Shown here: in pieces, positions 12,749 to 22,605 of the stretch
Position numbering within the stretch: position 1 is the stretch's first letter
Layout of the letters: every line of letters begins with the position of its first letter
DNA from: Planctomycetota bacterium
GTDB taxonomy: Bacteria; Planctomycetota; Phycisphaerae; UBA1845; UTPLA1
NCBI GenBank assembly: GCA_003576905.1
Contig: QEVG01000035.1
Location: 1-51,718 of the forward strand
DNA: 51,718 nt
Reading direction: 5' to 3'
Notes under the pieces: generated by a model
Told to the model about the DNA's origin: nothing
Databases searched by the model: none
What the model saw: only the letters and a program-made list of their open reading frames with translations
Translations under genes and position numbers: made by a program

Positions 12749-14002
12749 CTACTTGACCGGCTTCGCCGATAACAGCACGGGCCCGATCCGCTCCATTGCC
12801 CAGTCAATATCATTCTTGTCGATGACCAGTGGCGGAGCGAAGCGAATGACGTCCTCGTGGGCATCCTTGCAGAGGATCCCCTCTTCCATGAACTTTTCGC
12901 AGAACCACCGTGCTTTCGGGTAATTCGAATGGATCTGCACGCCTATGAGCAGGCCCCGGCCGCGCACTTCCTTGACGGCCGGTGCGCTTACTGCCTTGAG
13001 CTTTGAGCGGAAATGCTCGCCGAGTTCCCTTGCTCGATGCTCCAGACCTTCTTCGCGAATGATCTCCATCGCCGATCGCGCCACGGCGCACGCCAGCGGG
13101 TTGCCGCCGAACGTTGAACCATGATCACCGGGCTTGAATACGTCCATAATTGCGCGGGATGAGACAACGGCCGAGATCGGCAGGATTCCGCCGCCGAGGG
13201 CCTTGCCGAGGCACATCGCATCCGGTCGCGCCTCCGGCCCGTCGTGCTGCCAGGCGAACCGATAGCCCGTACGGCAAAGGCCCGTCTGAATCTCATCCGC
13301 AATAAACAGAATATTGTGCTTGGTGCAGATCTTTCGGATTTCGCGAAGGTAGCCATCCGGCGGCACGAGGATTCCGCTCTCCGCCTGGATGGGCTCGACG
13401 AAAAACGCCACGGTGTTTTTGGTGATGGCCTTTTCGAGGGCCGCCGGATCGCCGAACTTTACCAGCGGAAAGCCCGGCGTATAGGGTCCAAACCCGTCAC
13501 GGTACTGAGCATCAGTGCTGAAGCTGATGATGGTCGTCGTTCGACCATGGAAGTTGCCCTCGGCGCAGATGATCTCCGCCTTGTCCTTTTCCACGCCCTT
13601 GACGTAATAGCCCCACTTGCGGGCCATCTTGATCGCCGTCTCGCACGCCTCGGCGCCGCTGTTCATCGGCAGGACGGCTTCATATCCGGACAGTTCGCAC
13701 AACTCCTTGCAGAACGGCCCAAGCTGATCGTTGTGAAAGGCCCGGCTGGTCAGCGTCACCTTGTTGAGTTGCTTGGTCGCGGCGGCGATGAGCTTTTCGT
13801 GGGAATAGCCGAAATTCAGCGCGCTGTACGCGGACAACATGTCGAGATAGCGATTGCCGTCGACGTCCGTGACCCAGCATCCCTCGCCGGACTCGACGAT
13901 CACCGGCAGCGGGTGATAGTTGTGCGCGCCGTACTTGTCGGCGGTCTTGAGATGCTGTTGCGTCTTCGATTCCGGAGGAGTACTCGTCGCGCTGGTCGCC
14001 AT
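12749..14002 (-). CDS. rocD: Ornithine--oxo-acid transaminase (class III aminotransferase)
   Basis: 417 residues. This is a class III PLP aminotransferase with the ornithine aminotransferase signatures YGAHNYHPLPVIVESGEG and DMLSAYSALNFGYSHEKL. It also has NSGAEACETAIKMARKWGY, the D of DEIQTGLCRTG and the PLP lysine in CLGKALGGG. It converts ornithine and 2-oxoglutarate to glutamate semialdehyde and glutamate. An open frame extends far upstream, even through a tRNA gene, but a promoter at 14076-14104 excludes that extension. ATG 14002 has aaggcgac upstream. Confidence 0.93.
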   Translation of the reverse strand: MATSATSTPPESKTQQHLKTADKYGAHNYHPLPVIVESGEGCWVTDVDGNRYLDMLSAYSALNFGYSHEKLIAAATKQLNKVTLTSRAFHNDQLGPFCKELCELSGYEAVLPMNSGAEACETAIKMARKWGYYVKGVEKDKAEIICAEGNFHGRTTTIISFSTDAQYRDGFGPYTPGFPLVKFGDPAALEKAITKNTVAFFVEPIQAESGILVPPDGYLREIRKICTKHNILFIADEIQTGLCRTGYRFAWQHDGPEARPDAMCLGKALGGGILPISAVVSSRAIMDVFKPGDHGSTFGGNPLACAVARSAMEIIREEGLEHRARELGEHFRSKLKAVSAPAVKEVRGRGLLIGVQIHSNYPKARWFCEKFMEEGILCKDAHEDVIRFAPPLVIDKNDIDWAMERIGPVLLSAKPVK

Positions 14003-14075
14003 AGGGGTCTCGTCGCCTTGGAGTAAGCAATACACCTGTTTTCGGCCGGCATCGGCCAGCCTCTCAAGCGGCAGA

Positions 14076-14104
14076 ATCATAATCAGGCCCTCCGGCGGCG
14101 GCAA
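14076..14104 (-). promoter_or_regulatory. Promoter of rocD
   Basis: On the minus strand, TTGCCG, 17 nt, TATGAT. This predicts a start near 14069 and a leader of about 65 nt. An alternative ATG start codon lies inside the -10 hexamer and so is unlikely to be used. Confidence 0.55.
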
Positions 14105-14165
14105 TATTGGTGTGTAACCCACGATTGCGGGGCATTCGGTACAGGCTTCGCAGGCCGGCCGCATC

Positions 14166-14193
14166 TTGCCCGGAAGACCCGCGAAGTTAGAAT
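14166..14193 (+). promoter_or_regulatory. Promoter of tRNA-Arg
   Basis: TTGCCC (14166-14171), 16 nt, TAGAAT (14188-14193), 27 nt before the mature tRNA. Confidence 0.5.
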
Positions 14194-14220
14194 ACTCGCA
14201 CCTGACCCGATCAGGCCGCT

Positions 14221-14294
14221 GTCCTCGTAGCTCAATTGGATAGAGCGTCGGCCTCCGAAGCCGAAGGTTGCAGGTTCGAGCCCTGCCGGGGACG
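14221..14294 (+). tRNA. tRNA-Arg (anticodon CCG)
   Basis: A 74-nt cloverleaf. The acceptor gtcctcg pairs with cggggac (one T-G pair). The D arm is gctcaattggatagagc, the anticodon stem tcggc/gccga has loop ctCCGaa, and the T arm is gcaggttcgagccctgc. The discriminator is G and CCA is not encoded. It reads CGG, a codon expected to be common in a high-GC genome. No clear terminator follows. Confidence 0.97.
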
Positions 14295-14348
14295 AATTCC
14301 CGCCGATAGTGGTTTTCGGATGGGCCGGGCTGAATTCGGCTCGCGAGC

Positions 14349-15719
14349 CTAGCTGGCGGGTGCCGATGCGGGTGCACTTGTGGCCGGCTGCGTGACGGCC
14401 GGTTGCGCAGCGGGCTCTTTCTCCGGAAGCCCCTTTTCGATCAGATCGCCGATCGCATCGCAGAAGATATCAAGCTCCTGGGTCGTCGAATAGACGTTCG
14501 GGGTGACGCGAATCCCCTGGAAATCCTCGTGCACAATGGGCGTCACGATGATCTTGTGCTGTCGCCACAGCCGCTGCGCCAGGTCGTTTGGGGCAATGCC
14601 TTCGATGCCGAAAGTCGCGATGGCACAGGAATGCGCCGGGTCGAGATTGGTGTGAAACCGGACCCGTTCATATTTGGACAGCCGCTGCGCCCAGTAGTCG
14701 CGGAGCCATCGGAGGCGGGCCTCCTTCCGCGCGGGACCAATACCCTGGTAAAAAGTCAGCGCCTCGCCGATCGCGAGGCGCGGCGCGGTCGGATGGGTTC
14801 CGATCTCCTCGAATTTGCGGATGTTGTCATCCTTCTCGATCGGCGCAGCCTGCAGGGGCCAAAGGCTCTTGATCAATTCCTTTCGTACGTAGAGAAAACC
14901 CGTCCCAATCGGCGCGGTCAGCCATTTGTGAAGGCTTACCCCGTACATGTCGCAGTCGATGTCCGCGCACTGATAGGTAATCTGCGCGAATGCGTGGGCC
15001 CCGTCGACGATCGTCCGGATTCCCCGTTCCCGAGCCATCCGGCAGATTTCCGCCACCGGCAGTATCTGCCCCGTAATGTTTACGACATGACAGACAAGTA
15101 TGGCCTTTGTCTTTTCCGATATTCCTTCTTCAAAGAGCTTGATCACCTGGTCGGCGGACTGTATCGGAACGGGCAGTCTGAGTTGCTTGAGCACGATGCC
15201 TTCCCGCCGTTCGCGCTGCCGCAGCGTGTTCAGCATCCGCGGATAGTCCTGCGTGGTGGTCAGCACCTCGTCGCCGGCCTTTAGATCGAGCCCGTTGAGG
15301 ACAATCTGGAGCGACTCGCTCGCGTTCCGCGTGATCGCCAGCTCTTCCGGATCGCACCCGAACTGGCGGGCAAGCCGGACGCGGATTAGCTCGACCTGTG
15401 GATCCTGGTCTTCCCAAAGATGGCGCGACGGAGCGTGGTTGGCCCAGTCGAGCTGCCGTTTCATGGCTTCATGAACGACGCGCGGCGACGGGCAAACACC
15501 GCCATTGTTCAGATTGATGATCGAGCGATCGATGTCGAACGCCTGCTGGATGTGAAACCAGAAGTTCTCATTACCGGCGGCAACCGACGGAGGCTGGCTC
15601 GACGGCGCGGCTTCCTGCGCGCGCGCCAGGTGCACCGCCCAGTCGTCCTTCAACCAGGCAAATGCAAGCAATCCGGAACCTGTAAAGGTGCGGAGAAACG
15701 CTCGACGACTGGGTTCCAT
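14349..15719 (-). CDS. Tat-exported class V aminotransferase-fold protein (isopenicillin N epimerase-like)
   Basis: 456 residues. The N terminus is a twin-arginine signal (SRRAFLR at 4-10, then GSGLLAFAW). The rest is a class V PLP fold: NNGGVCPSPRVVHEAM near 71-86, RNASESLQIV, VDGAHAFAQ (Asp 239, His 242) and the PLP lysine in SLHKW (Lys 265). It is closest in layout to isopenicillin-N epimerase and cysteine-desulfurase-like proteins. Export by Tat fits a cofactor-loaded enzyme working outside the cytoplasm; its substrate is unknown. The C terminus (about 425-456) is an Ala/Pro/Gln/Thr-rich low-complexity tail. ATG 15719 has aggag 9 nt upstream. Confidence 0.88.
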   Translation of the reverse strand: MEPSRRAFLRTFTGSGLLAFAWLKDDWAVHLARAQEAAPSSQPPSVAAGNENFWFHIQQAFDIDRSIINLNNGGVCPSPRVVHEAMKRQLDWANHAPSRHLWEDQDPQVELIRVRLARQFGCDPEELAITRNASESLQIVLNGLDLKAGDEVLTTTQDYPRMLNTLRQRERREGIVLKQLRLPVPIQSADQVIKLFEEGISEKTKAILVCHVVNITGQILPVAEICRMARERGIRTIVDGAHAFAQITYQCADIDCDMYGVSLHKWLTAPIGTGFLYVRKELIKSLWPLQAAPIEKDDNIRKFEEIGTHPTAPRLAIGEALTFYQGIGPARKEARLRWLRDYWAQRLSKYERVRFHTNLDPAHSCAIATFGIEGIAPNDLAQRLWRQHKIIVTPIVHEDFQGIRVTPNVYSTTQELDIFCDAIGDLIEKGLPEKEPAAQPAVTQPATSAPASAPAS

Positions 15720-15874: not shown

Positions 15875-17356
15875 ATGCCCATGCCGTTTCTGCAATCACC
15901 TTCGCCCGGCCTTCTGACCGCAACAATCCTCGTGCTTGTCAGTGGCCCGGCCTTCGCGTCCGGCGGGACCGGCATCGCCGAGCAGTACCTGGATCCAGCC
16001 CGCAGGATCATGGATCACTCCCTCTCTTCCGTGGACGGCTGGCACAAATTGGAGGAACTCTGCGACGGGATCGGTCACCGATTGAGCGGATCGCCGCGCC
16101 TCGAAAAGGCCTTGAACTGGGCCATTGCAAAAATGAAGGAGGACGGCCAGGAAAACGTCCGCGGAGAGCCGGTCAAGGTGCCAAAGTGGGTGCGTGGTCG
16201 AGAATCCTTGACGATGCATTCGCCCCAGGAATACGACATCGCCATGCTCGGCCTCGGAATGTCCGTCGGGACGCCGCCCGAGGGGATTACGGCAGAAGTG
16301 CTCGTTGTGGCGGACGAAAAGGAGTTGGAGGCGGCCGGGACCGCCCCCAAGGGAAAGTTCGTGCTTTTCAACAATCCGATGCCCGCGTATGACGAGGCGA
16401 AGGGCTCGGGATATGGGAGCGCCGTACGTTTCCGCCATAAGGGTGCGCAACTCGCGGCGGCCCGGGGCGCGGTCGCCTGTCTCGTTCGCAGCGTCACCGC
16501 CAAGAGCCTGCGCACTCCTCACACAGGTGCGATGAGTTATGGCGACGCAGGTGTTCGCATTCCGGCAGCGGCCGTGTCCATCGAGGACGCGGAAATGATC
16601 TCGCGGCTCTGCCGCCGGGGAGAACGGGTGCGCCTGACGCTCAAGATGGAAGCGCGCGACGAGGGAATGGTGGACTCCGCCAACGTCATCGGCGAACTTC
16701 GCGGCCGCGAAAAGCCCGAGGAAGTCGTCGTCATCGGCGGACACATTGACGCCTGGGACGTCGGCCACGGGGCCCACGACGACGGCGCCGGGTGCGTCAT
16801 GGCCATGGAGGCGATCAACGTCCTGCGAAAGCTCAAGCTCATTCCGCGCCGGACGATTCGCGTCGTCCTCTGGACCAACGAGGAGAACGGCCTCGGGGGA
16901 GGCCGGGAATACGCCCGGGCTCACGCCGCAGAGCTCGACAATCATATCGCGGCTATCGAATCCGATTCCGGGTGCTTCGCGCCGAAGGGATTCAGCGTTG
17001 AGTGCGCTGACCCCGCCCGCGAGGAGCTGGCCTCGCGGCAGCTCGCGGAGATTGTGCGACTGCTTGAGCCGATCGGGGCCACGAAGGTGTCACGCGGAGG
17101 CTCCGGGGCGGATATCAGCCCGATGAAGCCCGCCGGTGTGCTCCTGATGGGCTTTTCCGTCGATGGCTCCCGGTACTTCGACTATCACCATTCCCACGCC
17201 GACACGCTCGACAAGGTTGACCCGAAACACCTTCAGCAATGCGTCGCCGCGATGGCAGTCACGGCCTATGTCCTCGCCGACATGCCGGACCGCTTAGGCG
17301 GGCCTCCGACCCGGTCGCCCGAGAACGCCGCCGCGGATTCTCATCCGGATCATTGA
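15875..17356 (+). CDS. Exported M28 family metallopeptidase with PA-like insert
   Basis: 493 residues. A Sec signal peptide (about 1-30, ending near AFASGG) precedes a mature protein that begins with a helical region. A protease-associated (PA)-like segment (about 140-240) comes next, then the M28 zinc peptidase core: GGHIDAWDVGHGAHDDGAG with zinc ligands near His 290 and the downstream Asp, TNEENGLGG with the catalytic and ligand Glu near 336-337, and HHSHADTLDKVD near 438. The architecture matches plasma glutamate carboxypeptidase-like aminopeptidases. The gaaggagt ribosome-binding site supports ATG 15875. The tail is Pro/Asp-rich. Confidence 0.92.
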   Translation: MPMPFLQSPSPGLLTATILVLVSGPAFASGGTGIAEQYLDPARRIMDHSLSSVDGWHKLEELCDGIGHRLSGSPRLEKALNWAIAKMKEDGQENVRGEPVKVPKWVRGRESLTMHSPQEYDIAMLGLGMSVGTPPEGITAEVLVVADEKELEAAGTAPKGKFVLFNNPMPAYDEAKGSGYGSAVRFRHKGAQLAAARGAVACLVRSVTAKSLRTPHTGAMSYGDAGVRIPAAAVSIEDAEMISRLCRRGERVRLTLKMEARDEGMVDSANVIGELRGREKPEEVVVIGGHIDAWDVGHGAHDDGAGCVMAMEAINVLRKLKLIPRRTIRVVLWTNEENGLGGGREYARAHAAELDNHIAAIESDSGCFAPKGFSVECADPAREELASRQLAEIVRLLEPIGATKVSRGGSGADISPMKPAGVLLMGFSVDGSRYFDYHHSHADTLDKVDPKHLQQCVAAMAVTAYVLADMPDRLGGPPTRSPENAAADSHPDH

Positions 17357-17395
17357 CATTATGGGCGATTCCGGGCGCTTCGGGCCGCTGATCCT

Positions 17396-17424
17396 TTGTG
17401 AACGCTTGCCCGATGGGATAAGAT
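17396..17424 (+). promoter_or_regulatory. Promoter of the molybdenum hydroxylase cassette
   Basis: TTGTGA (17396-17401), 17 nt, TAAGAT (17419-17424). The predicted start is near 17431, giving a leader of about 30 nt. Confidence 0.5.
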
Positions 17425-17461
17425 CAGGCGGTCGGAACAGTCGGGTACACATGGGGCGACC

Positions 17462-20185
17462 ATGGCCATTGCACCGGGCACTGAAGCAATCTGTTTCACC
17501 CTGAACGGCGCCGAAGTCGCCATTGAGCAAGCCGCGGACTTGTCGCTGCTCGATCTTCTTCGCGATCGGTGTGGAATCACTTCGCCCAAGGACGGATGCC
17601 AGCCCCTTGGCCAATGCGGCTGTTGCACGATCCTGATTGATGGGAAGCCACGTCTATCCTGCACCCTGAAGGCCACCATGGCCGCGGGTAAAGAGATCAC
17701 CACCCTCGAGGGCCTCCCCGAAGAAACACGAAAACGTATCGCCGATTGCTTTGTCCAGGCGGGCGGCGTGCAGTGCGGATTCTGCATTCCCGGCATTGCC
17801 ATGCGAAGCCACGCCCTTCTGGAAAAAAATCCCTGGCCGACGCGCGAAGAGATCGCCAATGATCTGCGGGCCCACCTCTGCCGATGCACGGGGTACACCA
17901 AGATTGTCGATGCCGTCGAATTGCTTGCCGCGGCTCGGAAGGACGGCGGGTCGCAGCCAGCTGCCGCGAATGGGAGGTCTCTCGCTCCGGCGGGCCCGAT
18001 CGGAACCAGCCTGCCCCGCTACCACGGCGCGGCCTGCGTCCTGGGGACCCATCTTTACATCGATGACATCGCGATTCCCGGCATGATCTTCGGAGCGATG
18101 CGCTACAGCGACCACCCGCGCGCCCGAGTCCGCCGAATCGATACTTCCCGTGCCGAGGCCCTTGAGGGCGTGGTCCGTGTTGTGACGGCAAAGGATGTGC
18201 CCGGCGCGCGATATGTCGGGCTGATTATCAACGACTGGCCGATCTTCGTCGCCGAGGGAGAGGAAACGCGCTGCGTCGGCGATATTCTGGCCGCCGTGGC
18301 AGCGGTCGATGAAAAAACCGCCCGAGTCGCCGCGGAACTCATCGAAGTCGACTACGAGGTCCTTTCGCCGGTTTGCACGCCGGAAGACGGCCTTAAGGCC
18401 GATGCCCCGAAGATTCACCCGGGGGGAAATCTGCTTTCAAGGTCTTCGCTCGTCCGTGGTGACGTGGATGCGGCATTTGCCGCCAGCGCGCACGTCGTCG
18501 AGGGAACGTGGCAAACGCAGCGTGTCGAGCACATGTACCTCGAACCCGAGGCCTCCATCGCCATTCCGGTCGCCCTGAACGCGGATGGCCATGCGCCCCG
18601 TGAGTCATGGCGGGAGACCATTCGGCGCCTGCCCGCGCGGTGCGACAGCTCCGCCCGCGGACTTCACATCCTCTCACAGGGCCAGGGCATCTACGACGAT
18701 CGACGGCAGATTGCCTCCGTGCTCGGCTGGACCCTCGAGCGCATTCATGCCGAACTCGTCACCAACGGCGGCGCCTTCGGCGGCAAGGAGGACATGTCGA
18801 TCCAGGCCCAGACCGCCCTCCTGGCGCACCTGACCGGCCAGCCGATCAAGACCGTTCTCACCCGCCCCGAAAGTCTGCGCCTGCACCCGAAGCGGCACCC
18901 CGTGACGTCGCACGTCAAAGTAGGTTGCGACGCCGAGGGCCGCATCACGGCGCTTCGGGCGCGGATCATCGGAGACAAGGGCGCATATGCGTCCGTCGGC
19001 GCAAAGGTACTGGAACGCGCCGCCGGGCATGCGGCCGGGCCCTATCGCATTCCCAATGTCGATATCGAGGCACTCGCCGTCTATACGAACAACCCGCCCT
19101 GCGGGGCGATGCGCGGCTTCGGGGCAAATCAGTCGGCCTTTGCCATCGAAGGCTGCCTCGACATGCTCGCAGAACGGATCGGCGTTGATGGATGGGAAAT
19201 CCGCAGCAGGAACATCCTTGAGCCGGGCGATCGGTTCTGCACCGGGCAGAAGCTCATCAAGCCTTTCGGCCTGCGAAAAACGCTGGAAGCCGTCAGAGAA
19301 ATCTACCGCGGCGCAAAGTACGCCGGCATCGCATGCGGAATCAAAAACGTGGGCATTGGAAACGGCCTTCCCGAGGCGGGCCGCGCCACGCTTACCGTTG
19401 AGCCGGGCGGCCGCGTGACCATCCGCACCGGATTCACCGAGATGGGACAGGGGCTGTTCACGGTACTGGTGCAGACGGCCGTGACGGAGACGGGCCTGCC
19501 GGCCGAAATATTCGATGTCCTCGCAGATACGGCACACAGGAACGACTGCGGTCAGACGACCGGCAGCCGCGGGACGGTCCTCGGCGCGTATGGCGTCCTT
19601 GAAGCCGCACGCAAGCTCAAGGCCGACCTCGACGCCGGCCGGAGGCTATCCGACCTGTCGGGCAGAACCTATGAGGGCGAATGGGTCTGCTACAAGACGG
19701 ACAAGTTCGGCGCGGACGTGCCCGACCCGAAGACGCACCTGACGTACGGCTTCGCGACGCAGGTGGTGATCCTTGACGACGCCGGCCGGCTGAAGAAAGT
19801 CGTCGCGGCGCATGACGTCGGGCGTGTCATCAATCCGACGCTCCTCGAAGGCCAGGTCGAGGGCAGCATTCACATGGGCCTTGGCTATGCCCTGACGGAG
19901 GAGTTCCCCTGCGAGGGTGGCCGGCCGCTCTATGAAGACGTCAAGAGCTGCGGTGTGCTCCGGGCGCACCACATGCCGGAAGTCGAAGTGATTCTCGTCG
20001 AGGAGCCGGACCCGGAGACGCCTTACGGAGCCCGGGGCGTGGGAGAGATCGGACTTGTGCCCACGGCCCCAGCCGTGGCTTCGGCCCTCTACGCGTTCGA
20101 CAAGATCCGCCGAACCACTCTGCCGATGAAGAATTCACCCGCGGCCCGGGCGATCCTCGGAAACAAGACTGCCAGACAACCATGA
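17462..20185 (+). CDS. Fused molybdenum hydroxylase, selenium-dependent xanthine dehydrogenase-like
   Basis: A 907-residue fusion of the small iron-sulfur subunit and the large molybdopterin subunit, with no FAD domain. Residues 1-75 are a plant-type [2Fe-2S] ferredoxin domain (Cys 46, 52, 55, 67). About 80-160 is the second [2Fe-2S] domain (QCGFCIPG, HLCRCTGY). After a short linker the molybdenum-binding part carries GGAFGGKEDMSIQAQ, MRGFGANQSAFA and the catalytic Glu in GVGEIG (Glu 862). This architecture and these motifs fit the TIGR03311 group, whose Enterococcus member needs selenium and SelD. The neighbouring XdhC-like and MocA-like genes support this. Selenium use here is inference, since no selD is in the window. 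The substrate could be xanthine or another N-heterocycle. Confidence 0.88.
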   Translation: MAIAPGTEAICFTLNGAEVAIEQAADLSLLDLLRDRCGITSPKDGCQPLGQCGCCTILIDGKPRLSCTLKATMAAGKEITTLEGLPEETRKRIADCFVQAGGVQCGFCIPGIAMRSHALLEKNPWPTREEIANDLRAHLCRCTGYTKIVDAVELLAAARKDGGSQPAAANGRSLAPAGPIGTSLPRYHGAACVLGTHLYIDDIAIPGMIFGAMRYSDHPRARVRRIDTSRAEALEGVVRVVTAKDVPGARYVGLIINDWPIFVAEGEETRCVGDILAAVAAVDEKTARVAAELIEVDYEVLSPVCTPEDGLKADAPKIHPGGNLLSRSSLVRGDVDAAFAASAHVVEGTWQTQRVEHMYLEPEASIAIPVALNADGHAPRESWRETIRRLPARCDSSARGLHILSQGQGIYDDRRQIASVLGWTLERIHAELVTNGGAFGGKEDMSIQAQTALLAHLTGQPIKTVLTRPESLRLHPKRHPVTSHVKVGCDAEGRITALRARIIGDKGAYASVGAKVLERAAGHAAGPYRIPNVDIEALAVYTNNPPCGAMRGFGANQSAFAIEGCLDMLAERIGVDGWEIRSRNILEPGDRFCTGQKLIKPFGLRKTLEAVREIYRGAKYAGIACGIKNVGIGNGLPEAGRATLTVEPGGRVTIRTGFTEMGQGLFTVLVQTAVTETGLPAEIFDVLADTAHRNDCGQTTGSRGTVLGAYGVLEAARKLKADLDAGRRLSDLSGRTYEGEWVCYKTDKFGADVPDPKTHLTYGFATQVVILDDAGRLKKVVAAHDVGRVINPTLLEGQVEGSIHMGLGYALTEEFPCEGGRPLYEDVKSCGVLRAHHMPEVEVILVEEPDPETPYGARGVGEIGLVPTAPAVASALYAFDKIRRTTLPMKNSPAARAILGNKTARQP

Positions 20186-21141
20186 ACCCTTTCGTCAGTC
20201 TTTTCCGCTCCCTCTCCCGGCAGGTTCAGCAGCACCGCCGTGTAGCCCTCTGCACCGTCGTCGGCGCATACGGCTCCACGCCCCAGGCGGCCGGCGCGGC
20301 GATGCTCCTGCATGAAAACATGACGACCGAAGGGACCCTCGGAGGCGGCTGCGTTGAGGCCGAAGTCCGCAAACGCGCCTTCGAGTTGCTTCAGCGTGAC
20401 CGGTCCGCGCTGCTTACATTCAAGCTTGATCACGATTACGGATGGGACGATGGATTGATCTGCGGCGGCACAATGCGCGTCGCAGTCACTACGATCCGGA
20501 ACCCGAACGCGCTGCCGCCGTTCGAACATGCCGCCGATCGCCTCGAACTCGGCCTGCCCGCGGAGGTCCTGCTGCGCGTGGACCACAACGGCGCGCCCGA
20601 GTCCTATCGCCTCGAGATCGAACCCCCGGCGAAACTCGTGATCGCAGGCGCGGGACATGTCGGCTGCGAAGTCGCGCGGCTCGCGATCGGGCTCGACTTC
20701 GACGTCACTGTCATCGACGACCGCGCCGACCTGTGCAGCCCCAGCCGTTTGCCTCCGCCGATACGGCCCGTCGTCGGCGACATCGTGGCGACCCTGCGCG
20801 AGCTGCCAATCGACGCCAACACCTTTGTCGTCGTCGTGACCCGCGGACACAATCACGATGAACAGGCCCTGCACGCCGTGATCGACTCTCCGGCACGCTA
20901 CCTCGGCATGATCGGCAGCAGGCGCAAGGTCAAGCTCATCTTCGACGATCTGGCGGCCCTCGGCGTCACGCGCGAAAAGCTCGACCGCGTGCATGCCCCG
21001 ATCGGGCTGCCAATCGGCGGCGTCACCGTACCCGAGATCGCGGTCAGCATTCTCGCTCAGCTCGTGCTGGTTCGCCGAAAACAGATGCCTACGCGCGTGA
21101 CCGGCCCCCTGCCCGCCGACTCGACCACCGCCATGCAATGA
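20182..21141 (+). CDS. XdhC/CoxI family molybdenum cofactor maturation protein
   Basis: 319 residues. An N-terminal XdhC/CoxI domain (GAYGSTPQAAGAAMLLHEN, LGGGCVEAEV) precedes a C-terminal Rossmann domain (VIAGAGHVGCEVARLA near 153-168, then YLGMIGSRRK). In known systems XdhC binds the molybdenum cofactor, helps add the terminal sulfido ligand and inserts the cofactor into the hydroxylase. The start codon overlaps the stop of the hydroxylase gene (ATGA), so translation is coupled and the partnership is close to certain. Confidence 0.92.
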   Translation: MNPFVSLFRSLSRQVQQHRRVALCTVVGAYGSTPQAAGAAMLLHENMTTEGTLGGGCVEAEVRKRAFELLQRDRSALLTFKLDHDYGWDDGLICGGTMRVAVTTIRNPNALPPFEHAADRLELGLPAEVLLRVDHNGAPESYRLEIEPPAKLVIAGAGHVGCEVARLAIGLDFDVTVIDDRADLCSPSRLPPPIRPVVGDIVATLRELPIDANTFVVVVTRGHNHDEQALHAVIDSPARYLGMIGSRRKVKLIFDDLAALGVTREKLDRVHAPIGLPIGGVTVPEIAVSILAQLVLVRRKQMPTRVTGPLPADSTTAMQ

Positions 21142-21237
21142 TGCAGGATTGCCGTGCCTGGGCCGGGCTCCAGCCGTACAATGCTGAAGGGTACCCGCCG
21201 GCCTGATCATTTACGCGGGCCGGTGAAAGGCTGTGCC

Positions 21238-21852
21238 ATGAGTCGTCGTGTATTCGCACTTGTTCTCGCTGCCGGTCAGGGCCGCCGCATGGGGCGCATC
21301 AAGCAGCTCCTGCCCTATCGCGACGGCACCATTCTCGAGGCGGTTATCGACGCGGTTCTCGAGTCCACCGTCGATGGCGTATGCGTCGTGGCCAATCACG
21401 CGGTGCGTGATTTCCTCGGCGACGATCTACCCGAGCGGTTTATCGTGGCCCGGAACGACGCGGCAGAAAGCGAGATGATTGCCTCCATCCAGGTCGGCGT
21501 GAAGGCGATTCGCGATCAATTCGAGGCGCAGGATGATGACGGGATCATGATCCTCCTCGCCGATCAGCCTCAGATCACCGGAGGGATCATCACCACCTGC
21601 GCCGAAGCCTGGAAGCTGCCGCGCAAGACGCCGCCGCCCATCCTGATTGCGACCTATCGCGGCCGGCGCGGCCATCCGGCCATCTTCTCCGCCGCCTTGA
21701 TGTGGGAGGTCGAAACCTGGACAACGGATCGCCGGCTCAATGAACTTGCCCGGCGCTCACCGGAAAGCGTTCGAGAGCTGCCGATCACGACTTCGCCGAT
21801 GCCGATCGACGTAAATACACCGGAAGACTACGAACGCCTCACGGGAAAGTAA
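21238..21852 (+). CDS. mocA: MocA-like molybdenum cofactor cytidylyltransferase
   Basis: 204 residues of the NTP-transferase fold. LVLAAGQGRRMGRIKQLLPYRDG (about 6-28) is the nucleotide-binding signature, LADQPQIT the metal site, and RGRRGHPAIFS the family C-terminal block. MocA enzymes attach CMP to molybdopterin for xanthine-dehydrogenase-type hydroxylases. As third gene of the cassette, it likely prepares the cytosine-dinucleotide cofactor for the hydroxylase. ATG 21238 gives the family N terminus; a further upstream in-frame start would add 28 unrelated residues. A TACAAT hexamer at 21177 may allow separate expression. Confidence 0.87.
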   Translation: MSRRVFALVLAAGQGRRMGRIKQLLPYRDGTILEAVIDAVLESTVDGVCVVANHAVRDFLGDDLPERFIVARNDAAESEMIASIQVGVKAIRDQFEAQDDDGIMILLADQPQITGGIITTCAEAWKLPRKTPPPILIATYRGRRGHPAIFSAALMWEVETWTTDRRLNELARRSPESVRELPITTSPMPIDVNTPEDYERLTGK

Positions 21853-22062
21853 TTGACTGGGTGCTGATCCTGTTTTGCCGCGGCCGCAGCGGATTTAAGC
21901 CCGATAAGGGAAGACGCCCTGAACCACCGGCCGTCCATATCATCCCACGCAGGGCGAATCATCGCCGAGGAGATATCCCAATACCCGCCCTGTCTTGCCA
22001 AGGATGTGAGGCGATACGCGATGTCCAGCGAGCGCATTTGTACATTTTCGCCCCGCGCGTTG

Positions 22063-22605
22063 TCAATCCAGCGGCCTATAGAAAATCACGGCGTCATGAA
22101 ACGTCTGCCCATCCGGGTTTACGGCGAAGTTCGGAATGACGCCGACATACGTCCACCCCATGCGCCGGTACAGCCGCTCCGCGGCGCCGCCCCGTTTGGC
22201 ATCGAGCGTCAGCAGACGATATCCCGTAGCGCGCGCCTCCTCCTCGATGTCGTGCATGAGTCGCGCGCCAAGCCCTGCGCCGCGCCGCCGGTGGTCGACG
22301 AGCAGTTTCACGACCTCTGCCCGGTGAGGCTGGTTCGGCGCCCATGCCGGGTGCATTTGAACGGTCCCAACGATCTCCCCGCCCTCGCGGGCCACCAGGA
22401 ATACTGCTTTCGGATGCGATTCCGCCAGGGTCTTTCGCCACCATTGCTCCGCCTGTTCCAGTGTCAGGGGGCGCACAAAACTCACCGCGTCTCCTGATTC
22501 CACCGTTTCAACGAGTATGCGCGCTAGAGCGCGAAGATCGCGCGCACGCGCCGGATGGGCCAATCGTTCGATCAATATCCCCGGCATCGCCGCGTCGTTC
22601 GACAT
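22063..22605 (-). CDS. GNAT family N-acetyltransferase
   Basis: 180 residues of a GCN5-related acyltransferase. The acetyl-CoA site is VVKLLVDHRRRGAGLGARLMHDIEEEA (motif A, near 98-124), preceded by VGTVQMHP and followed by LTLDAKRGGAAERLYRRMGWTYVG. The substrate is unknown. It is the last gene of a minus-strand run, 28 nt after the crotonase gene. The 210 nt beyond its 3' end (to mocA) show no gene and no clear terminator. Confidence 0.88.
   Translation of the reverse strand: MSNDAAMPGILIERLAHPARARDLRALARILVETVESGDAVSFVRPLTLEQAEQWWRKTLAESHPKAVFLVAREGGEIVGTVQMHPAWAPNQPHRAEVVKLLVDHRRRGAGLGARLMHDIEEEARATGYRLLTLDAKRGGAAERLYRRMGWTYVGVIPNFAVNPDGQTFHDAVIFYRPLD

Follow-up and report, generated by a model that had tools for sequence, protein, structure and literature searches.

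The stretch analysed here, called the window, comprises positions 1 to 51,718 of contig QEVG01000035.1 of a Planctomycetota bacterium of the class Phycisphaerae (GCA_003576905.1) and carries a three-gene cassette for a molybdenum (Mo) hydroxylase. The hydroxylase gene (17462..20185, + strand, 907 codons) encodes two [2Fe-2S] domains and a Mo domain. A Pfam domain scan found Fer2_2, Ald_Xan_dh_C, MoCoBD_1 and MoCoBD_2 and detected no flavin adenine dinucleotide (FAD) domain. All eight [2Fe-2S] cysteines are present, each conserved in 98 or 99 of 103 aligned rows. An XdhC-like maturation factor of 319 amino acids with XdhC_CoxI and XdhC_C domains follows (20182..21141, + strand), its start lying inside the ATGA that ends the hydroxylase gene. 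The third gene (21238..21852 from ATG, + strand) encodes a MocA-like molybdopterin cytidylyltransferase of 204 amino acids with a MobA-like NTP transferase domain. Its open reading frame is listed from a GTG at 21154, which adds 28 residues ahead of the ATG at 21238; the ATG is the likelier start because the family match begins just after it. These reading frames and domains confirm the FAD-less, ATGA-coupled cassette given in a preliminary description of this DNA, made from the sequence without database searches. The promoter claimed there was not recovered: a sigma-70-type scan of 17200-22100 returned 0 sites against a mean of 1.0 in shuffles, and the candidate near 17396 (TTGTGA, 17 nt, TAAGAT) matches 8 of 12 consensus positions by eye. 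No FAD subunit is found among the four neighbouring genes scanned, which encode an M28 peptidase, a GNAT protein, a class-V aminotransferase and an enoyl-CoA hydratase.

The hydroxylase scores 941.3 bits against TIGR03311 (cut-off 830.45), its top family as had been proposed, with the xanthine dehydrogenase, aldehyde oxidase and CO dehydrogenase models far behind. The next models are PucD (483 bits) and the MOP-type aldehyde oxidoreductase NF045668 (417 bits, cut-off 1100). Identities as an ordinary XdhA/XdhB, a CO dehydrogenase or a 4-hydroxybenzoyl-CoA reductase were rejected, all scoring far below cut-off. Neither companion protein reaches the cut-off of any NCBIfam model listed. The best model for the XdhC-like protein is NF045664 (aldehyde-oxidoreductase maturation; 248 bits, cut-off 350); this protein is 29% identical to residues 1-253 of Escherichia coli YqeB, the XdhC-like part of that protein, and lacks the YqeB part. 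The MocA-like protein reaches 121 bits against TIGR03310 (MocA; cut-off 186), and its PF12804 domain is over cut-off.

The fold of the hydroxylase is settled by its sequence alone. When the whole protein is compared with solved structures, the top matches are Desulfovibrio aldehyde oxidoreductases of the MOP type, aligned over most of its length; these enzymes (1SIJ, 1DGJ) likewise have 907 residues, the same domain order and no FAD. This single-chain design with XdhC- and MocA-type helpers could denote a MOP-type aldehyde oxidoreductase, to which the best score of the XdhC-like protein, though below cut-off, also points. We consider this very improbable and rejected it on the model scores, with the hydroxylase well below the MOP cut-off and far higher against TIGR03311, and on residue Glu443, where MOP enzymes have Phe. 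For the Mo domain alone, the best-scoring solved structure is nicotinate dehydrogenase (3HRD), a selenium-containing enzyme; unlike the window's hydroxylase, it consists of separate subunits and has Leu at the Glu443 position. The linker between the two halves of the Mo domain (residues about 371-402, corresponding to 18572..18667 on the + strand with limits approximated from the alignment) is some 23 amino acids longer than in most relatives. Long linkers also occur at this site in the related loci L130 and L117, so this loop is simply variable.

Two sister clades within TIGR03311

Among 294 sampled planctomycete genomes, TIGR03311 is over cut-off in 19, with scores of about 1430 bits in G197 and G230 and of 833-953 bits in the other 17, the window's genome included; the next planctomycete score is 566 bits. 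To place these proteins, we kept the best 80 of 588 relatives from one scan of species genomes and built a FastTree phylogeny of 100 rows, adding the window and 19 other planctomycete rows to these 80 named loci. Thirty-nine rows form clade A (support 99), which is made up mostly of Bacillota and Spirochaetota, with Synergistota, two Actinomycetota, G197 and G230. Clade B (59 rows, support 100) holds the window, 16 other sampled planctomycetes and 42 named loci, and its phyla include planctomycetes, Bacteroidota, Actinomycetota, Pseudomonadota, Chloroflexota and others. Only L182 and G012 lie outside both. An IQ-TREE phylogeny of 44 family rows and five outgroup rows (G012 among them) gave Shimodaira-Hasegawa-like approximate likelihood ratio test values of 99 for clade A and 100 for clade B; its root is unsure because the outgroup branches are long. 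In both trees the window's hydroxylase lies outside clade A, with its Enterococcaceae and Clostridium members, and inside clade B, which on this evidence is a distinct clade, sister to the classical selenium-dependent TIGR03311 enzymes. Its nearest rows, among the best 80 of 588 relatives and the planctomycete sample, are two Phycisphaerae metagenome-assembled genomes (MAGs), L108 and L130, and it is 39-46% identical to the clade A members compared.

The classical reference is EF2570, which is itself absent from the trees and is presumably a clade A member; the Enterococcaceae member L156 falls in that clade. Like the window's protein, enzymes of the EF2570 type are single chains with two [2Fe-2S] clusters and a Mo domain and have the same Glu and Arg positions. 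The window's hydroxylase also passes the TIGR03311 cut-off and its genome encodes SelD, but it belongs to the separate clade B and its genome has no yqeB or yqeC match.

We take Glu443, Arg519 and Glu862 of the window's protein to correspond to Glu802, Arg880 and Glu1261 in xanthine dehydrogenase numbering. The first two positions are Glu and Arg in 39/39 clade A and 59/59 clade B rows, and the third is Glu in 38 and 58 rows, with one gap in each clade. In E. coli XdhD and XdhA, Gln replaces the first of these residues and the second is not Arg. The clades differ at two further positions nearby: position 550 is Phe or Tyr in clade A and Met (46 rows) or Phe (13 rows) in clade B, and position 556 is Asn in 56/59 clade B rows and Thr, Cys, Pro or Ser in 37/39 clade A rows.

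Uric-acid genes beside the relatives and in the window's genome

A reductive uric-acid pathway has been reported that comprises XdhD (uric acid to 2,8-dioxopurine), YgfK, SsnA, HyuA, YgeY, YgeW and YgeX (PMC12507026). To count such genes beside the hydroxylases (stretches of 12.6 kb mean length in clade A and 12.1 kb in clade B), genes were called by codon scoring, longest-open-reading-frame calling being unsuited to GC-rich genomes. Most probes were taken from the same loci, with representatives named by NCBIfam, some of them below cut-off: SsnA-like representatives score 314-394 bits (cut-off 444-455), the YgeW-like 290 (cut-off 500) and the YgfK-like 391-413 (cut-off 835), the last since only the first 400 positions match. 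Among the 59 clade B loci, SsnA-like genes occur in 36, two PALP families in 20 and 21, YgfK-like genes in 13, YgeW-like in 10, YgeY-like in 8, carbamate kinase in 8 and HyuA-like in 7. Any of these eight is present in 41 loci, at least two in 30 and at least three in 23, and any pathway gene in 25/39 clade A loci. Adding the E. coli proteins and two other amidohydrolases as probes left the single counts unchanged and gave at least three pathway genes in 24/59 clade B loci. An inflation of the SsnA count by other amidohydrolases was rejected, as 36/59 stood with 8-oxoguanine and guanine deaminase as competing probes. True YgeX matches are found in 2/59 clade B and 4/39 clade A loci; the lyase step is a guess because the PALP proteins of L109 and L130 show no E. 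coli YgeX match at E 1e-4.

The nearest relatives illustrate this arrangement. The hydroxylase of L108 has as neighbours YgeY (542 bits, cut-off 321.5), a carbamate-kinase match and a YgeW-like protein, which at 290 bits stays below the cut-off of 500. The order in L130 is a PALP piece, an ssnA-like gene (379.5 bits, below 455.5), carbamate kinase, ygeW- and ygeY-like genes, the hydroxylase and then a MocA-like gene, whose product is 37% identical to the window's. YgfK-, SsnA-, XdhC- and MocA-like genes flank the hydroxylase of L111, and in G278, of the window's class, an ssnA-like gene and two PALP genes lie near it with a ygfK-like gene 3.5 kb off. The hydantoinase of L147 is over cut-off (499 vs 393 bits). 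The preliminary description had taken the gene set of the cassette as a mark of the family, yet clade B hydroxylases are seldom accompanied by the XdhC-MocA pair: XdhC occurs in 2/59 and MocA in 4/59 clade B loci, the window included. Two observations stand apart from the pathway genes. LLM-class, F420-type oxidoreductases are encoded near the hydroxylases of clade B Acidimicrobiia and kin (L123, L124, e.g. L124:8602-9579), in 8 Actinomycetota loci by clustering and 2 by a stricter probe, and recall a Chloroflexota variant described in PMC12507026. In G065 (L054:6150-9757), the clade B hydroxylase adjoins a second hydroxylase, its FAD, FeS and Mo parts encoded by separate genes.

The window's own genome encodes three candidate pathway proteins. 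YgeY on contig C17 is over cut-off (532 bits; 68% identical to that of L108 and 53% to that of E. coli), the SsnA-like protein on contig C5 scores 375 bits and is 49% identical to that of L130, and a short YgfK-like protein on contig C62 scores 355 bits and is 47% identical to that of G278. The YgfK-like protein is 36% identical to residues 7-422 of E. coli YgfK and has a ferredoxin-like tail; the middle part (about 423-903) is missing. A deoxyhypusine-synthase family protein (257 bits, L196:11546-12931, contig C62) is encoded next to it. About 113 kb of stretches from this genome were examined for a uric-acid operon near ygeY, ssnA or ygfK, and none was found. Elsewhere in the window, a tRNA-Arg(CCG) gene (14220-14295, + strand) lies inside the upstream part of a 542-amino acid aminotransferase-like reading frame (12749-14377, - strand), the true start of which is probably further in because of this overlap on the opposite strand.

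Across the 17 clade B planctomycetes, the N-terminal part of YgfK is present in 14 (in two pieces in G065) and absent from G123, G158 and G161, which are 59, 76 and 88% complete. SsnA matches of at least 219 bits occur in 15. In G019 and G192, ssnA lies beside the hydroxylase in pieces (best 115 and 134 bits), and the 8-oxoguanine deaminase of the window's genome also reaches 128 bits. An SsnA-like gene adjoins the hydroxylase in 6/17, and YgeY is over cut-off in 5/17. Among all TIGR03311-positive planctomycetes YgeY is over cut-off in 7/19 genomes, compared with 8/275 of the others. Nine same-class genomes were scanned out of the 20 with no TIGR03311 match over cut-off: SsnA reaches 54 bits at best in them, and the YgfK matches listed cover the later part of the model, not the N-terminal part.

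A reductive purine enzyme as the favoured interpretation

Gene content and homology, from which we infer substrate, direction, electron donor and Mo ligand, lead us to favour, with modest confidence, a purine enzyme of clade B that works reductively, probably using ferredoxin-type electrons to turn uric acid into 2,8-dioxopurine. Glu443 and Arg519 would bind uric acid. A ferredoxin-like donor would supply electrons, which would reach Mo by way of the two [2Fe-2S] clusters, an entry route proposed because no FAD subunit adjoins the hydroxylase. An oxygen-independent pathway would begin with removal of the C6 oxygen, which would yield 2,8-dioxopurine (yanthine). The short YgfK-like protein would then reduce this compound, SsnA would open it and YgeY would carry the cleavage further. 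MocA would convert the cofactor to its cytidine form, and insertion of the terminal Mo ligand, more likely sulfur than selenium, would fall to the XdhC-like protein.

The reduction of uric acid to 2,8-dioxopurine has been reported for E. coli XdhD (PMC12507026). XdhD of E. coli and Clostridioides difficile resembles clade B in its setting, many clade B relatives adjoining ssnA, ygfK, ygeY, ygeW or PALP genes, and the C. difficile form, like the window's, has no FAD partner beside the hydroxylase.

Several points weigh against this interpretation. The window's hydroxylase is only 27% identical to E. coli XdhD, which has Glu606 in an insert without counterpart in the window. E. coli XdhD co-purified with a putative FAD subunit, and the C. 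difficile XdhD assignment rests on proximity (both PMC12507026). No pathway gene adjoins the hydroxylase in the window, and 18/59 clade B loci, including the window and nine other sampled planctomycetes, lack a pathway neighbour, although some of these stretches are short. Unlike the system of E. coli, the partner genes of the window's genome are scattered over three other contigs among unrelated genes, its YgfK-like protein lacks the middle part and its SsnA-like protein does not reach the curated cut-off. In the own-genome stretches scanned, short of a genome-wide search, no match was obtained to HyuA, YgeW, carbamate kinase or the PALP lyase. Moreover, 6/8 of the other YgeY-positive planctomycetes carry yqeB, so YgeY also accompanies other hydroxylases.

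Oxidation of xanthine is a conceivable alternative, as EF2570 of Enterococcus faecalis is reported to be a selenium-dependent xanthine dehydrogenase (PMC11448449). An enzyme oxidising xanthine or hypoxanthine in the same manner would fit the TIGR03311 score and the conserved purine-binding Glu and Arg positions. We think it unlikely, as clade B neighbours are uric-acid breakdown genes and the genome already has an FAD-containing hydroxylase on contig C29 (L061:1633-9657), a three-gene xanthine dehydrogenase with separate FeS, FAD and Mo genes. This second hydroxylase adjoins an 8-oxoguanine deaminase (599 bits, cut-off 532), which would make uric acid. Neither XdhC nor MocA is matched (E 1e-5) within the surrounding 15 kb; an arginine deiminase is encoded nearby. 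Of the purine- or heterocycle-oxidising role given in the preliminary description, the purine part is supported, whereas oxidation is probably the wrong direction, many relatives lying in reductive uric-acid loci.

Selenium genes and the scope of the family label

The same description had assigned the cassette to the selenium-dependent type and called for searches of selD, yqeB and yqeC, naming a better score to other families or a genome without selD as grounds for giving up the assignment. Neither was found. The window's genome (4.7 Mb, 97.16% complete, 2.07% contaminated) carries selD (G000:C48:154742-155659, L001; 359.9 bits) with one in-frame TGA (..CAGUAGK..), whose U we take to be the SelD active-site residue; this SelD is probably itself a selenoprotein, judging from its reading frame. 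An Rfam scan of the selD locus gave no match, and no search for tRNA-Sec, selA or selB covered the remainder of the genome. Neither yqeB nor yqeC is matched in this genome at E 0.001. SelD, YqeB and YqeC have together been treated as marks of the selenium-cofactor trait (PMC2276186, PMC5029168). Planctomycete selenocysteine (Sec) use is already in print (PMC4807772), and Sec use already explains the selD of the window's genome because that gene has its own in-frame TGA.

In the planctomycete sample, selD is over cut-off in 196/294 genomes and gives a strong match in all 19 TIGR03311-positive ones, including 17/17 of clade B (in G023, G065, G071, G164, G214 and G278 read from E-values of 6e-69 or better). 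The preliminary description had regarded such a system as unusual in a planctomycete, which these counts and the 19/294 TIGR03311 carriers do not bear out. The co-occurrence has a hypergeometric p of 3e-4 for the 19 and 8e-4 for the 17, uncorrected for kinship. Of 22 genomes of the window's class, three have a strong selD match, and these include both hydroxylase carriers (p 0.013). This association is weak evidence because in several hydroxylase-bearing planctomycete families every sampled genome is selD-positive. The yqeB gene passes its cut-off in 21/294 planctomycetes and in 4/19 TIGR03311-positive ones, namely G037 and G071 of clade B (2/17) and G197 and G230 of clade A. We also checked 50 named genomes, all 42 of clade B and 8 of 37 of clade A, in which single gene absences mean little because completeness is not given. 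Here selD is over cut-off in 29/42 clade B vs 7/8 clade A genomes and yqeB in 9/42 vs 7/8. The genome of L108 has selD over cut-off; those of L130 and L111 (G297) do not. Within about 6 kb of the hydroxylase, yqeB is found in 12/39 clade A vs 0/59 clade B loci and yqeC in 11/39 vs 0/59. Clade B as a group is mostly without the known selenium-cofactor marks, though selD is common among carriers.

A true selenium-dependent hydroxylase would have a labile selenium on Mo, supplied by selenophosphate from SelD and inserted by the XdhC-like protein or by some unrecognised factor; being a question of the Mo ligand, this alternative overlaps with uric acid as substrate. It is a tenable possibility of rather less than even probability. 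The TIGR03311 score, the presence of selD in every clade B planctomycete against 196/294 overall, the selD-strong hydroxylase carriers of the window's class and the 29/42 named clade B genomes, that of L108 included, speak for it. The gene evidence nevertheless leans against: yqeB and yqeC are missing from the window's genome and from all clade B loci, yqeB is rare in clade B genomes compared with the clade A controls, 13/42 clade B genomes (MAGs such as those of L130 and L111, of unstated completeness) lack selD over cut-off, the genome's own selD is accounted for by Sec use and Sec enzymes supplying electrons could cause the co-occurrence. Selenium dependence of the window's hydroxylase thus appears somewhat improbable, and of the assigned type the TIGR03311 score and selD stand while the absence of yqeB and yqeC, the place outside the Enterococcaceae clade and the clade B genomes without selD count against it. 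That clade B comprises selenium-loaded uric-acid reductases, mostly matured without YqeB and YqeC by SelD and the XdhC-like protein, is a speculative combination that we hold to be quite unlikely; if true, such maturation would be a second route for selenium onto molybdenum.

The label 'selenium-dependent' of TIGR03311 is probably too broad: 17 clade B planctomycetes pass the model and only 2/17 have yqeB over cut-off, so that selenium use may be overcalled by this name. Should clade B enzymes contain selenium, YqeB would not be the sole means of inserting it. The section on variants in PMC12507026 names neither Planctomycetota nor Bacteroidota, and we found no description of planctomycetes with the reductive uric-acid pathway or such enzymes in the open-licence literature, most subscription journals being outside the scope of that search. 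The genes around the clade B hydroxylases also suggest that planctomycetes and other environmental phyla possess reductive uric-acid breakdown, a process demonstrated in gut bacteria.

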